A stretch of 43,377 bases of DNA from a virus, in IMG/VR virus record IMGVR_UViG_3300037140_000074, positions 1-43,377 of that record; one strand, 5' to 3'. Position numbers and translations under genes: made by a program. Below are positions 1 through 43,377 of the stretch, in pieces. The notes beneath the pieces were generated by a model that did not search any database, had not been told where the DNA came from, and saw only the letters and a list, made by a program, of their open reading frames with translations. The first letter of the stretch is position 1, and every line of letters starts with the position of its first letter.

Positions 1-142
1 AGCGGCATCCACGACAGTAATGTCACGGGTGAATTTTGAAAACATAGAACGCACAAATAACAAGCTGTTCAAAGATACGATGATTAGTAACTTGCTTCTC
101 ATGTTTCCTTTCTACATGCTTGCTAAGCCTTCAGAACCTAAT
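1..142. repeat. Terminal direct repeat, left copy (matches 43236-43377)
   Basis: Bases 1-142 match 43236-43377 with a single difference: G at 127 against T at 43362. The first 126 bases are identical. The simplest reading is that the record is a circular or terminally redundant phage genome of 43,235 bp whose contig ends overlap. The mismatch changes a Lys codon to Asn in the gene that spans the junction, so it may be a population variant or a sequence error. A true short packaging repeat cannot be excluded, but lying inside a coding sequence makes that less likely. Confidence 0.9.
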
Positions 143-15310: not shown

Positions 15311-16350
15311 TGAAAAAATACAGTTGGCTAATCGCACTTTGTCTATCCCTTATTTTTATTCAGACTTCATACGCTCAAACAGTGGGCGTAGTGGGCCCTG
15401 CGATCGGCTTTCCTTCAGGTGGTGGTGCAGGTGGTAGCTCCGCTGCTGCTTATACCGTTCTAGGTAATTTTACGAGTTCAGCGGCAACGCCAACTTACAG
15501 CTACGCACCTATAGGGGCACAGGCGCTGACTACTACGGCGACTTTGACAGCTGATTCTCCGAGTTATAATTACTGCACTGGACTAACCGGTTTCACTGTC
15601 AATTTACCTGTCGCAAGCACTTGCATTGGTAAAGAGCTCACTATTTACAGCGCTATTACAGCTTACAGCACTACAACTATTTCTAGACAAAGTAGTGACG
15701 TAGTTGAATTTGGCCAGGACGGTAATGCTGTTACATCATTCACTATACAGACGGGAATGTCTGTAAAAGTCATTGCCGTGGCAAGTGGGGTTTGGCAAGT
15801 AGTACAAGCACCCTTTCCCATACTGACATTAAATCCTACTCCGACTAGTGGAGGAATATTAGTCGGGGCTGCTGGTACTGGACACCTGGCATATCTCAAT
15901 GCTGGAACTTCAGGACAACTTTTACAAATATTGGGTACAGGCCCAACATATACCAGCACACCGGGTTCAGGCACTTCTTTAACTTCTATTACTGTTACAC
16001 ATCAAATAGGCGGGGGCACCGCTCCAACAGTAGCCGTGGGGGCTGGAGCGGGAACCGGTGGAAGCCCCGGAGCTACAATTACTGGCCACGATACTGATTT
16101 CGTGGTTACTTTAACAACTGGTACGACCGCAGGAACAGGCGTGATATTCACTGTTACTTTCGGTGCTGCTTATGCTTCCGCGCCTATAGTTCAAGTAACT
16201 CCTGCGAGCGCTGCTACAGCAGCTCTAGTAGGCGGACTCACGCAATCATATCCAACAAGTACAACGACAACAACGGTTCTTAATTCAGGTTCTACAGGAT
16301 TGACCGCAGCAGGGGCTGTATATGTTTTCAATGTGCACGTGGGCCAGTGA
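15310..16350 (+). CDS. Tail-tip-like adhesin with Sec signal peptide
   Basis: 346 residues. Residues 1-22 are a textbook signal peptide (MKKYSWLIALCLSLIFIQTS, then YAQ). A Gly/Ser linker follows (FPSGGGAGGSSAAAYT). The C-terminal 90 residues resemble the beta-rich domain at the tips of many phage tail fibres: GHDTDFVVTLTTGTTAGTGV, then VTFGAAYASAPIVQVTPASA and VYVFNVHV. So a domain normally found on virions is here coupled to export. It could be a secreted decoy or surface protein, or a structural protein with an unusual N-terminus. The start overlaps the previous stop (TAATG), and the gene overlaps none downstream. Confidence 0.75.
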   Translation: MKKYSWLIALCLSLIFIQTSYAQTVGVVGPAIGFPSGGGAGGSSAAAYTVLGNFTSSAATPTYSYAPIGAQALTTTATLTADSPSYNYCTGLTGFTVNLPVASTCIGKELTIYSAITAYSTTTISRQSSDVVEFGQDGNAVTSFTIQTGMSVKVIAVASGVWQVVQAPFPILTLNPTPTSGGILVGAAGTGHLAYLNAGTSGQLLQILGTGPTYTSTPGSGTSLTSITVTHQIGGGTAPTVAVGAGAGTGGSPGATITGHDTDFVVTLTTGTTAGTGVIFTVTFGAAYASAPIVQVTPASAATAALVGGLTQSYPTSTTTTTVLNSGSTGLTAAGAVYVFNVHVGQ

Positions 16351-16354
16351 TGTC

Positions 16355-16846
16355 ATGAAAATAACAGGAACATTGGAAAATTTAGGAAAGAGACTGCTTG
16401 CTTACAGTGAGATAGACACTATAACCGGTTGTCGCAACTGGAAGCGGGGGTTATATTCTAAAACTGGTGGCTATGGTTGCGTTAGATTTAATGGGGCAAA
16501 ACTACCAGCCCATCGCGCTGCCTATCTTGTTTTCAAAGGCGAGATTCCTGCTGGTTTATTTGTCCGGCATCTTTGTCATAATCGACTTTGTATAGAACCA
16601 AAGCATTTAGAAGTTGGTACACAGTTTGATAATCTTCAAGATAGTGTGAAAGATAAGCGCTTTCAGTGGGGAGAAAATCACCATAATGCAAAACTTACTT
16701 GCGAGGATGTCCAAGCATTACGGCATTTAATTGCCGCAGGATTAAGCAACGTGGATATAGCGCAAGTTTTTAAGATAAGTCATGTCCAGGTCGCCAATAT
16801 TCGTCATGGCAAATTATGGCAACATCTTAAAGTAGTAGGACAATAA
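16355..16846 (+). CDS. HNH homing endonuclease with C-terminal HTH
   Basis: About 163 residues from the ATG at 16355; a longer frame from 16322 would overlap the previous gene. The HNH nuclease core is visible: CRNWKRGLYSKTGGYG, AHRAAYLVFKGEIPAGL, then VRHLCHNRLCIEPKHLEVGT..DN with the metal-finger His and two Cys. The last 50 residues form a helix-turn-helix recognition unit (LSNVDIAQVFKISHVQVANI). The architecture matches free-standing phage homing endonucleases that cut DNA lacking the insertion. It shares the same layout with the minus-strand gene at 40954-41412, so the two are probably paralogs. It separates the adhesin from the genes at 16859-17387. Confidence 0.88.
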   Translation: MKITGTLENLGKRLLAYSEIDTITGCRNWKRGLYSKTGGYGCVRFNGAKLPAHRAAYLVFKGEIPAGLFVRHLCHNRLCIEPKHLEVGTQFDNLQDSVKDKRFQWGENHHNAKLTCEDVQALRHLIAAGLSNVDIAQVFKISHVQVANIRHGKLWQHLKVVGQ

Positions 16847-39883: not shown

Positions 39884-40064
39884 CGATTTTGCCATTAAAG
39901 AAAAGCTCTCTGAAGAAAAAATAAAAGATCAACTATTTAAAATAGCACATGAGCTTATGTTTAGATTGACTTGGTGTGGCAATTTAGATTCGACTGTTTT
40001 AAGTGATATCGGCCATACTTTTATAAATTTATCAAAACAAAAAGGAAGAATAAAAAATGGATGA
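39876..40064 (+). CDS. Small helical protein before scaffold
   Basis: 62 residues, mostly helical and charged (FAIKEKLSEEKIKDQLFKIA), with one Cys and HTFINLSKQKGRIKNG at the end. It overlaps both neighbours by eight bases. Not recognised. Confidence 0.55.
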   Translation: MANDFAIKEKLSEEKIKDQLFKIAHELMFRLTWCGNLDSTVLSDIGHTFINLSKQKGRIKNG

Positions 40065-40953
40065 AGTAGTACAAGCAGACATTCAAGGTTCAGGTACAGT
40101 GGCAACAATGCCTTCGCCTGATGCTCCTGCTCCATTACCGGATTTTATGTCGGTAGTACCGGAAAAGTTTAAAGAAGCTCAATGGGTAAAAGACACTGCT
40201 AAATCAGAAAAGCCTTTTGAAGCATTTTTTAGTCAATTTGAAAATGCTCAAAAAACTATTGGTGAAAAATCAAAAGCTTTAGAAATTCCAGGGGCAGATG
40301 CTACACCTGAGAAAGTAGCCGAATTTCGTAAAGCATTAGGCGTACCTGATAAACCAGAAGGTTACGAATACACTCCACCCGATATATCTAAAGAACCAGA
40401 AGCAGTTCAAAAGATTTTAAAAGAACGTGAATCAGATCAAACGTTCATGAATACAATGCGACAAAAAGCATTGGATGCTGGAATCACACCAGCGCAATTT
40501 AAAACGCTTGCAGCAGAATTTGACGGACTTACAGTTGCTCAAGTAAAAGCACAAGTACAAGGCCAAGCACAAGCACTAGAAACGCTAAAAACGCAGCGTA
40601 ATGAAAATCTAGCTAAGCTCTACGGTGATAATGCTCCTGCTTATATCAGACAGGCTGATGAAACTCTTTTAAAAGCTATTCCAGAAAGTATCCGTAAGTT
40701 GAATGATCCTGGTTTAGCTTTAATTGAAGCTCTCAGAATTATTAATGACAAGGTTTACAAGAGCGATGTTATTGGTACAACTAATCAAGGGGCACCTGAA
40801 TTAACGATGCCTCAACTCCGAGCAAGAATTGTAGAGTTGACTAGTAAGCCTGAGTACGCAAATAAGTTTGCTCCTGGGCATAGCGCTTTGAAACATCAAG
40901 TCGATCAACTTTATATTGAAGAAGATAGACTAAAGAAAAATAAGATAGAATAG
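40057..40953 (+). CDS. Capsid scaffolding protein
   Basis: 298 residues; helical, Lys/Glu/Gln-rich, without hydrophobic core segments. The layout is typical of podoviral scaffolds: disordered Pro-rich start (PSPDAPAPLPDFMSVVPEKF), then WVKDTAKSEKPFEAFFSQFENAQKTIG, VAEFRKALGVPDKPEGYEY, a long central helix (VKAQVQGQAQALETLKTQRN) and a basic C-terminus (YIEEDRLKKNKIE) that could contact the coat. The LGVPDKPEGYE phrase is a strong family sign. It ends one base before a converging HNH gene, with no terminator between them. Confidence 0.87.
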   Translation: MDEVVQADIQGSGTVATMPSPDAPAPLPDFMSVVPEKFKEAQWVKDTAKSEKPFEAFFSQFENAQKTIGEKSKALEIPGADATPEKVAEFRKALGVPDKPEGYEYTPPDISKEPEAVQKILKERESDQTFMNTMRQKALDAGITPAQFKTLAAEFDGLTVAQVKAQVQGQAQALETLKTQRNENLAKLYGDNAPAYIRQADETLLKAIPESIRKLNDPGLALIEALRIINDKVYKSDVIGTTNQGAPELTMPQLRARIVELTSKPEYANKFAPGHSALKHQVDQLYIEEDRLKKNKIE

Positions 40954-41412
40954 TTAAACGTGTGTCCAATAAGGGCCAGAACGGCGAATTACATTCCAAA
41001 TAGTGTGATAATTGACTGTTAAATGCTGTGCAATTTTCACAATTTTCCAGCCTTCTTTATAGAGTTTTCGCGCTTCTATTACTTGTGTAGAAGTTAAAAT
41101 AGTCCTACCATGTATTGCTCCGTAGGCATGACGTTTTTTCTGCATTGCATCAAGTTTATTATCTTTAGCAGTTCCAATAAACAGATGATCTGGATTTACA
41201 CAATTACGTACATCGCATTTATGTAAAATGTCTAATGTATCAGGTAGTTCTTTAAAATAGAGTTTCCAAGCGTATCTATGTGCTTTTACTGTTTGTTTAT
41301 AAGAAAGTTTAAAATGCCCATATCCACGGGCAAGGTTTGCAGTCCAAAGCCAGCAAGAATCAGTCTTTCTAACTTTTGCCCAAAATCGTTGTTCTGTGGT
41401 AAGCTTTTGCAT
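40954..41412 (-). CDS. HNH homing endonuclease with HTH, inserted between scaffold and coat
   Basis: 152 residues on the minus strand, opposite to all neighbours. The HNH core is CWLWTANLARGYGHFKL, AHRYAWKLYFKELPDTL, ILHKCDVRNCVNPDHLFIGTAKDN, followed by a C-terminal HTH (GWKIVKIAQHLTVNYHTIWNV). The layout matches the gene at 16355-16846. Insertion between scaffold and coat genes is typical of free-standing homing endonucleases. AGGAG lies eight bases before the ATG but inside a hairpin (41415-41452). Confidence 0.9.
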   Translation of the reverse strand: MQKLTTEQRFWAKVRKTDSCWLWTANLARGYGHFKLSYKQTVKAHRYAWKLYFKELPDTLDILHKCDVRNCVNPDHLFIGTAKDNKLDAMQKKRHAYGAIHGRTILTSTQVIEARKLYKEGWKIVKIAQHLTVNYHTIWNVIRRSGPYWTHV

Positions 41413-41414
41413 AT

Positions 41415-41452
41415 AAATAGCTCCTGTTGCTTTGCGGTGACGAGAGCTATTT
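41415..41452 (-). promoter_or_regulatory. Hairpin covering the HNH ribosome site
   Basis: AAATAGCTC (41415-41423) and GAGCTATTT (41444-41452) pair perfectly over nine bases. On the minus strand the 3' arm lies directly before the ATG and pairs the last bases of AGGAGC, the ribosome site of the HNH gene. In T4 the I-TevI homing endonuclease is held down by a ribosome-site hairpin; this could work likewise. Confidence 0.6.
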
Positions 41453-41464
41453 TAACATGGGGTA

Positions 41465-41494
41465 TTGACAGATTAAAGTTAGCACTTGTAATAT
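41465..41494 (+). promoter_or_regulatory. Sigma70 promoter of the coat gene
   Basis: TTGACA (41465-41470), an 18-base spacer and TAATAT (41489-41494) lie 124 bases before the coat ATG. The -35 is followed by GATTAAAG, so the promoter begins with the GACAGATTAAA word also found at the early promoters. A dedicated promoter explains high coat expression despite the opposing HNH gene upstream. Confidence 0.8.
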
Positions 41495-41528
41495 ATTAAT
41501 TACTGGGCAGGCCTTAGTAGGCTCCTAA

Positions 41529-41610
41529 ATCTTTTAAACGTCCGATATGCGGATAGCGTTCCTAAAAGATAGACAACTAAAAAATAGTTTTAAACGTCTA
41601 TCTTTAGGAG
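41529..41610 (+). promoter_or_regulatory. Structured coat-gene leader with two exclusive hairpins
   Basis: Hairpin 1 pairs ATCTTTT (41529-41535) with AAAAGAT (41564-41570), with inner stems AACG/CGTT and TCCG/CGGA. Hairpin 2 pairs 41561-41574 with 41596-41608 over 13 bases with one bulged A. It takes in AGG of the ribosome site AGGAG (41606-41610), which lies 7 bases before the coat ATG. AAAAGAT is shared, so only one hairpin can form. TTTTAAACGTC occurs twice, once per hairpin. Such designs switch translation on and off. Confidence 0.6.
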
Positions 41611-41617
41611 AATCACT

Positions 41618-42523
41618 ATGGCACTTCAGTCCTCAATTGGGGATGTCTTGATAACCAAGTTCTCAGACACCGTATTCAGATTGGCTCAACAAACTATGGC
41701 CCGCACACGGGTTATTGTGGAAATGGAGCAATTGAACGCTGAACAGATGATGTTCCCCCGAATCGGTTCTGCTGAAGTTCAACAACTAAACACCAGATTT
41801 GCTGAAATTATCCCTGCTGACATCCAGTGGGACAATCGCCGTTTGTCAGGAGCTAGATTCGGCTTACCTTTATTCGTTGATAAATGGGATGCTGAACGGA
41901 TGCTTGCAGACCCGCAATCTGAATTGGCAATGAGAGCCACACAAGCGTTAGAAAGAAACTTAGACCGTATCGTTATAGCAGCAGCTACAGCAACCGTGTT
42001 TACCGGTAGAACAGGTACTGTACCTGTAACCGCCGCAAATGATGGTGTAACTACTGTTGACTGCGTTAATGGTTTCACTTATGAATCTTTGCTGCAAATA
42101 GATGCTAACTTCCAAGCTCAAGAAGTTGGGATGGAAGCACCTTTACGCAAATTCCTGTTAATGTCAGAACAAGAACACCAAGCCTTAATGAAAGAAGGTA
42201 CTTTAATTAGTGGTGACTTTACTCGTCAATACGTTGTCGAGCAAGGCTACATGATTAAGGCTCTTGACTTCGATATCATCAGATTTGGTTCTGGTGTGCC
42301 TCTACCAATGCTTCCTGTAGTTGCTAATGTCCGAGCCAACCTTGCTATCGCTTATGGCGCTATCAAATTAGGTATCACACAAGCTTGGGAAATCGACGTT
42401 GAAAAACGTACTGATAGATGGCAAACAACTCAAGTTCTAGCCGTAGGTACTTGTGGCGCGGTACGGATGGAAGGTGTTCGCGTTCAAATTGTTAACACCA
42501 CACCTGCACCAAACCCAGCATAG
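41618..42523 (+). CDS. Major capsid protein
   Basis: 301 residues; an HK97-fold coat protein of the BPP-1/Bbp17 kind from memory. Signs are MALQSSIGDVLITKFSDTVFRLAQQ near the start, the VEMEQLNAEQMMFPRIG region, RRLSGARFGLPLFVDKWDAERML, LERNLDRIVIAAATATVFTG, FLLMSEQEHQALMKEGTLIS, and AIAYGAIKLGITQAWEIDVEKR in the C-terminal part. It follows scaffold (with an HNH insertion between) and has its own promoter and structured leader. Confidence 0.88.
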   Translation: MALQSSIGDVLITKFSDTVFRLAQQTMARTRVIVEMEQLNAEQMMFPRIGSAEVQQLNTRFAEIIPADIQWDNRRLSGARFGLPLFVDKWDAERMLADPQSELAMRATQALERNLDRIVIAAATATVFTGRTGTVPVTAANDGVTTVDCVNGFTYESLLQIDANFQAQEVGMEAPLRKFLLMSEQEHQALMKEGTLISGDFTRQYVVEQGYMIKALDFDIIRFGSGVPLPMLPVVANVRANLAIAYGAIKLGITQAWEIDVEKRTDRWQTTQVLAVGTCGAVRMEGVRVQIVNTTPAPNPA

Positions 42524-43167: not shown

Positions 43168-43377
43168 ATGAAAAAATATCTCTCAGCATTACTCGCACTC
43201 TTTTTTGCAGTATGTGCAATTCAGCCTAGCTTTGGAGCGGCATCCACGACAGTAATGTCACGGGTGAATTTTGAAAACATAGAACGCACAAATAACAAGC
43301 TGTTCAAAGATACGATGATTAGTAACTTGCTTCTCATGTTTCCTTTCTACATGCTTGCTAATCCTTCAGAACCTAAT
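43168..43377 (+). CDS. Signal-peptide-bearing virion-like protein, 5' part (continues at 1)
   Basis: The ATG at 43168 follows the cement-gene stop by three bases. The product begins with a clear Sec signal (MKKYLSALLALFFAVCAIQP, then SFGA) and continues into SRVNFENIERTNNKLFKDTM, the same frame as bases 20-655. Base 43362 (T) differs from base 127 (G), giving Asn here and Lys there. The full protein has about 240 residues. A second hydrophobic segment, NLLLMFPFYMLA, lies near residue 52. Confidence 0.85.
   Translation, partial: MKKYLSALLALFFAVCAIQPSFGAASTTVMSRVNFENIERTNNKLFKDTMISNLLLMFPFYMLANPSEPN
43236..43377. repeat. Terminal direct repeat, right copy (matches 1-142)
   Basis: Second copy of the 142-base terminal repeat. 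It lies within the coding sequence that starts at 43168 and crosses the contig junction. See the left copy for the mismatch and its interpretation. Confidence 0.9.

Follow-up and report, generated by a model that had tools for sequence, protein, structure and literature searches.

A covarying leader RNA at the capsid gene of distant aquatic podoviruses, complementary to its own ribosome site in most clades

The capsid gene of the podovirus analysed here is preceded by a compact and strongly covarying RNA, which is tied to this one gene across very distant aquatic podoviruses. This leader is a conserved, cis-acting RNA, with two mirrored 4x1-loop hairpins near the predicted 5' end of the transcript; in most clades it is, on statistical grounds, complementary to its own Shine-Dalgarno (SD) region, at places that are clade-specific. 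In our best reading of the results, the RNA represents a new family of leaders that control coat translation by way of a putative effector, and we give a probability of roughly 0.6 to control of capsid translation being its main role. Phages make coat protein late, in large amount and matched to scaffold, and to our knowledge RNA-level control of this production is little known in tailed phages. The leader RNA can also be used as a marker of capsid transcripts in viral metagenomes.

An initial annotation of the window, i.e. the whole stretch of 43,377 nucleotides analysed (IMG/VR record IMGVR_UViG_3300037140_000074), had described two alternative hairpins just upstream of the capsid gene. The region that it covered is the 3' half of the larger conserved, structured leader RNA, whose core, made of the hairpins P1 and P2, was missed there.

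The capsid locus and its leader

The first and last 142 of the 43,377 bases of the virus record (1-142 and 43236-43377) form a direct repeat of 99% identity, so that the record looks like a complete podovirus genome; it is probably complete, the repeat being either terminal or the result of a circular assembly. The major capsid protein gene (41618..42523, + strand, 301 aa) is assigned by homology to annotated capsid proteins (phrog_3437, E 5.8e-28). Upstream of it lies a scaffold-like protein gene (40057..40953, +; phrog_3742, E 9e-22), which is in synteny with the annotated scaffold protein gene of MW202485. The capsid transcript would start from a sigma-70-like promoter (41465..41494, +), with TTGACA at 41465-41470 and a -10 box that can be read as TGTAAT (spacer 16) or TAATAT (spacer 18), and the sequence places the SD of the capsid gene, AGGAG, at 41606..41610 (+).

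The 60 or 90 nt upstream of the gene are more stable than all of 1000 dinucleotide shuffles, and the 120 nt upstream more stable than 998 of 1000. In the predicted ground state the SD is paired, with an openness of about 1% when the full leader is folded. Opening the capsid start site costs 9.4 kcal/mol, a value that about 6% of shuffles reach and that ranks 7th for closure among 37 genes of the genome; the closure of the SD is, by itself, no more than modestly unusual, and not exceptional for this genome.

An HNH endonuclease gene on the opposite strand (40954-41412, -) separates the scaffold gene from the capsid promoter. There is no HNH gene at the corresponding place in the related contigs L004, L006, L007 and L027, L004 having there an 84-aa ORF of unknown kind. 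The SD of the HNH gene sits inside a perfect 9-bp inverted repeat (41415-41452, AAATAGCTC/GAGCTATTT) and its start site costs 11.0 kcal/mol to open (rank 3 of 37 genes); hairpins hiding the ribosome site are known in homing endonuclease genes of the T4 type. The most strongly closed start site among the genes tested is that of gene 665-1354 (14.9 kcal/mol), and a second HNH endonuclease gene is located at 16322-16846 (+).

A conserved core of two mirrored hairpins

With the terminase as query, four contigs with related heads are retrieved, the capsids of which share about 80% (L004) or about 48-51% (L005, L006 and L007) identity with that of the window. Capsid profiles add L027 (64%) and about 80 further loci, and the portal as query finds no relatives. 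The leaders of the relatives commonly display the same layout, namely a TTGACA promoter, two hairpins and an SD, and their hairpins have a 4-nt side (GUAG, GGAG, GCAG, AUAG etc.) facing a single U.

In the window, the conserved core of the leader RNA, as matched by covariance model R3, spans 41502..41562 (+) and begins about 9 nt past the promoter. According to the sequence and the R3 alignment, P1 (41505..41525, +) reads GG[GCAG]GCC-uuagua-GGC[U]CC, the 4-nt side of its 4x1 internal loop being on the 5' strand. P2 (41538..41559, +), which reads ACG[U]CCG-auaug-CGG[AUAG]CGU, has the mirrored 4x1 loop and forms the inner part of the first of the two hairpins of the initial annotation. Among the tabulated leaders, 24 have an exact TTGACA at most 70 nt upstream of the element, and the median distance from the -10 box to P1 is 9 nt.

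The seed alignment contained 17 leaders of one distant clade, with the structure set by hand and the pairs counted; 9 pairs show two-sided changes, which none of 500 shuffles reaches. Model R1, built from these 17 distant leaders only, recovers the L006 and L007 leaders of the window clade, and its matches in 494 kb are capsid leaders only. The window leader is recovered by R2 (E 0.014) and scores 36.9 bits with R3 (E 1.6e-6 in 494 kb), which gives a single match in the window's own genome (E 1.5e-7), with no second copy, all these E-values being rough owing to a shortened calibration. At E < 0.001, R3 yields 38 matches, i.e. 37 distinct ones since L001 and L035 are one contig, and all 38 lie directly upstream of a capsid gene.

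Two-sided changes affect 15 of 19 pairs in an alignment of 34 sequences (covariation 0.414 vs 0.153 shuffled) and 16 of 19 pairs in the 23 sequences left without the seed clade (0.510, compared with 0.159 for shuffled alignments and no more than about 0.10 for slid ones); in neither case does any of 500 shuffles reach the observed value. Since a model-fitted alignment is biased in favour of the structure of the model, the slid controls and the recovery across clades weigh more than these raw percentages. A chance structure is refuted by the shuffles. A DNA operator could be considered, inverted repeats occurring in operators too, but the two-sided changes pass through G-C, A-U and U-G pairs, and the matches are on the transcribed strand and at one place only; chance structure or operator is, as an explanation, hardly conceivable. 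We conclude with near certainty that a conserved structured RNA exists at capsid leaders.

The internal loops are also conserved. Their 4-nt side is most often GUAG (15 of the 38 members) or GGAG (14) in P1, and GGAG (21) or GUAG (8) in P2, and it faces a single base that is almost always U. In seven leaders (L032, L003, L051, L054, L119, L028 and L029), AUAC opposite C is seen by eye, the model scores being weak; for several of them the weak matches fall at the expected place. In some clades the middle of the core forms a hairpin; in the seed clade it is predicted to form an H-type pseudoknot, the strands of which are invariant and so provide no covariation evidence.

Occurrence of the leader RNA

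In total, the leader RNA is found in 37 distinct environmental leaders and 38 records of cultured Vibrio phages, and 13 of 22 whole records contain it once, at the capsid leader. A scan of IMG/VR with a DNA pattern built without capsid information gives 23 matches, 18 of which are just upstream of a capsid homologue; the five others lie in GC-rich sequence and seem to be fortuitous. The window leader DNA itself, used as a probe, has no match in IMG/VR. Among cultured phages, Vibrio phages VP5, phiVC8 and K300 carry the core according to the model (E about 2e-6), the Vibrio phage leaders recurring in 19 + 19 records, and the core is seen by eye only in Alteromonas phage ZP6 and Vibrio phage 1.182.O.

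A 12-bp inverted repeat (GTTCTCCCTATG / CATAGGGAGAAC) surrounds the -10 box of the capsid promoter in VP5 (L148, about 410-450), and nearly the same repeat, with one mismatch, is found at this box in phiVC8 (L150). From its sequence, it is a possible candidate operator.

The capsid leaders of pelagiphages with related capsids (L042, L043, L045 and L047) have no R3 match. In bacterial genomes, the capsid profile finds nothing and the DNA pattern gives 42 scattered matches, mostly in GC-rich genomes, none of which stands; the best bacterial model score (L155, 25 bits) comes from a coding repeat and was rejected. Nothing in Rfam 15 reaches the gathering threshold for the window and ten relatives, and a permissive Rfam search of 11 further loci gives only sub-threshold, implausible matches. 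No such RNA is described in the literature searched, a limited set of journal papers with few from subscription titles.

Pairing of the ribosome site in the window

The initial annotation proposed a translational switch, in which AAAAGAT pairs either upstream with ATCTTTT, in a hairpin 1 that frees the ribosome site, or downstream, in a hairpin 2 that hides it. The pairing words are indeed present at 41564-41570 and 41529-41535, respectively, and so is the duplicated word TTTTAAACGTC (41532-41542 and 41588-41598). This exact 11-base duplication is absent from the relatives' leaders that were read and, considered as a T7-like promoter repeat, the word does not recur in the window beyond chance.

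Hairpin 2, hereafter P3 (41560..41609, +), closes the SD. Its stem of 14 bp with one bulged A pairs TCCTAAAAGATAGAC (41560-41574) with GTCTATCTTTAGGA (41596-41609) and is topped by a 5-bp apical stem; folded alone, it reaches -17.8 kcal/mol and covers AGGA of the SD. This part of the proposal is supported by comparison within the five-member window clade, where P3 is kept with changed bases in L004, L006, L007 and L027. The pairings are UCCUAAA/UUUAGGA in the window, UCCAAAA/UUUUGGA in L027, UCCAAGA/UCUUUGGA in L006 and CCC..AGAC/GUCU..GGG in L007. As the MAFFT alignment of P3 in this clade is non-structural, its covariation rests on the reading of the stems and on the swap test described below.

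Hairpin 1 (41529..41570, +) consists of P2 and an outer extension of 8 bp (41529-41536 with 41563-41570), with an energy of -11.9 kcal/mol. A simple switch, with hairpin 1 freeing and hairpin 2 closing the SD by kinetics or temperature, would be in line with the existence of both hairpins, with the stretch that they share (41563-41570) and with hairpin 1 forming first in prefix folds. The outer half of hairpin 1 (ATCTTTTA/TAAAAGAT) is, however, not conserved (own vs swapped p = 0.16, n = 5), and hairpin 1 does not free the SD. Forcing it costs 0.7 kcal/mol (-37.0 vs -37.7 kcal/mol) and the SD is paired in both folds, because a second anti-SD, CTCCTAAA (anti-SD 1, 41522..41529, +), captures it. 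Anti-SD 1 is the exact complement of TTTAGGAG (41603-41610), overlaps the 3' strand of P1 and, when the full leader is folded at minimum energy, is the partner of the SD. Timing by temperature finds no basis either: in the nearest-neighbour model, SD openness does not exceed about 1% at any temperature between 4 and 37 C, so that an RNA thermometer is not supported. This simple switch is very improbable. What stands of the proposal is a translation-linked, covarying leader RNA, and other clades likewise show alternative pairings of the SD region: covariation in related leaders is found for the core, P3 and the SD pairing, but not for the outer stem of hairpin 1.

Pairing of the ribosome site across clades

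In the swap test, the best duplex between the leader (-150 to -30) and the SD region (-25 to 0) was compared between own and clade-mates' sequences; the clades were assigned by the analyst from the leaders, which gives own pairs no advantage since the permutation runs within clades. Own pairing beats swapped pairing in clades A (z -4.6), B (z -6.2) and D (z -4.5; p <= 5e-5), with weak agreement in the window clade, C (z -1.9, p 0.03, n 5), and in the small clade E (p = 0.009). Controls with coding, upstream and downstream DNA show no effect, except for the clade A core against +50..75 (p = 0.03). The anti-SD lies in the pseudoknot region in clade A, in the loop and 3' strand of P2 in clade B (CUCCUAUG with CAUAGGAG in L119, CCUUGUGAUGG with CCAUUACAAGG in L003) and in P3 in the window clade. 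Compensating changes thus maintain SD pairing in clades A, B, C, D and E, but not in VP5 and phiVC8, which keep P1 and P2 with little SD pairing (duplexes of -9.1 and -5.5 kcal/mol, respectively). SD closure is therefore not universal, and it may be an added layer on the core.

The main rival explanation comes from this persistence of the core where SD pairing is not kept, and from its position near the transcript start. The put RNA of phage HK022 binds the beta' zinc-binding domain of RNA polymerase and suppresses termination. By analogy, the nascent two-hairpin RNA would bind the host RNA polymerase, in order to read through pauses or terminators of the structural operon, SD pairing being secondary. 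The presence of one copy, just behind a strong sigma-70-like promoter, fits such a role. Complementarity to the own SD in most clades would not be expected from it, however, and no intrinsic terminators were found near the window leader by a simple scan. Moreover, put acts early and at two promoters, whereas the leader RNA is found at one structural-gene promoter, and neither R1, R2 nor R3 matches the HK022 stretch where putL is located (L048), which by eye lacks the twin loop. We consider a put-like function as unlikely.

Proposed role of the leader RNA

Across leaders, the mean modelled SD openness is about 0.2. With the core imposed, clade A goes from 0.18 to 0.38 (p = 8e-5) and the other clades go from 0.23 to 0.46 (p = 6e-4), in models that leave out pseudoknots, ligands and proteins and where the rise partly follows from exclusivity, as any imposed structure occupying the anti-SD would open the SD. 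As the free leader is mostly SD-closed and the imposed core opens the SD in most leaders, these models suggest that the folded or bound core could be the ON state. For the window the gain is small, SD openness being 0.17 before and 0.34 after the core is forced, because P3 and P2 can coexist. P3 thus stays closed beside the folded core, and opening would need a further step, which could be provided by the effector, the ribosome or competition between anti-SDs.

Control of capsid translation would then proceed as follows. One effector could recognise the core, the two loops of which resemble paired binding sites; its binding, or the folding of the core, would shift the leader between SD-closed and SD-open states, and coat protein would be made late, in quantity, or in proportion to an assembly partner. 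One rather doubtful possibility is that, in a widespread RNA family, unassembled capsid or scaffold protein sets coat translation according to the state of assembly, by binding to both of the mirrored 4x1 loops in its own leader. Alternatively, the leader could sense nothing and P1 could be a 5' stabiliser or processing structure, shielding the capsid mRNA from decay. This mRNA is expected to be abundant, and P1 starts about 9 nt past the -10 box, near the 5' end, as would suit a stabiliser. A stable stem would suffice for this purpose, though, and would require neither that both hairpins conserve their 4x1 loops nor that the leader covary with the SD, so that we hold this explanation for quite improbable. 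As the leader RNA is present in cultured Vibrio phages, both the effector and the mechanism of the proposed translational control are directly testable.

Comparison with known systems

Some riboswitches act on translation, such as those of the preQ1-II and SAM-II type. Like these, clade A leaders are predicted to form an H-type pseudoknot, with strands complementary to the SD region; unlike riboswitches, the leader RNA has no Rfam riboswitch match and precedes a capsid gene, not a metabolic gene, and its single copy at this gene speaks against a metabolic riboswitch. In RNA phages, the coat-protein operator represses the replicase gene, and in P22, autoregulation concerns the scaffold gene. 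In both, the level of a structural protein feeds back on translation, and by analogy the leader RNA might resemble them in this respect.

In T4, the leaders of genes 32 and 43 act on the phage's own ribosome site through a hairpin or pseudoknot that precedes the start (PMC3014915). The capsid leader is likewise a structure of a phage mRNA, upstream of the start and tied to the ribosome site. It differs from the T4 leaders, which bind replication proteins, by being at a capsid gene and by its mirrored 4x1-loop hairpins and clade-specific anti-SDs. In HK022, putL follows PL closely and forms two stem-loops in about 70 nt (PMC9378689). The leader RNA, of about 60-80 nt, also has two hairpins at a short distance from its promoter and from the predicted 5' end of the phage transcript, but the models reveal no relation of sequence or structure to putL. 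Unlike the put RNAs, which belong to early promoters and of which putL shows no twin 4x1 loop by eye, it is predicted to pair with the SD in most leaders.
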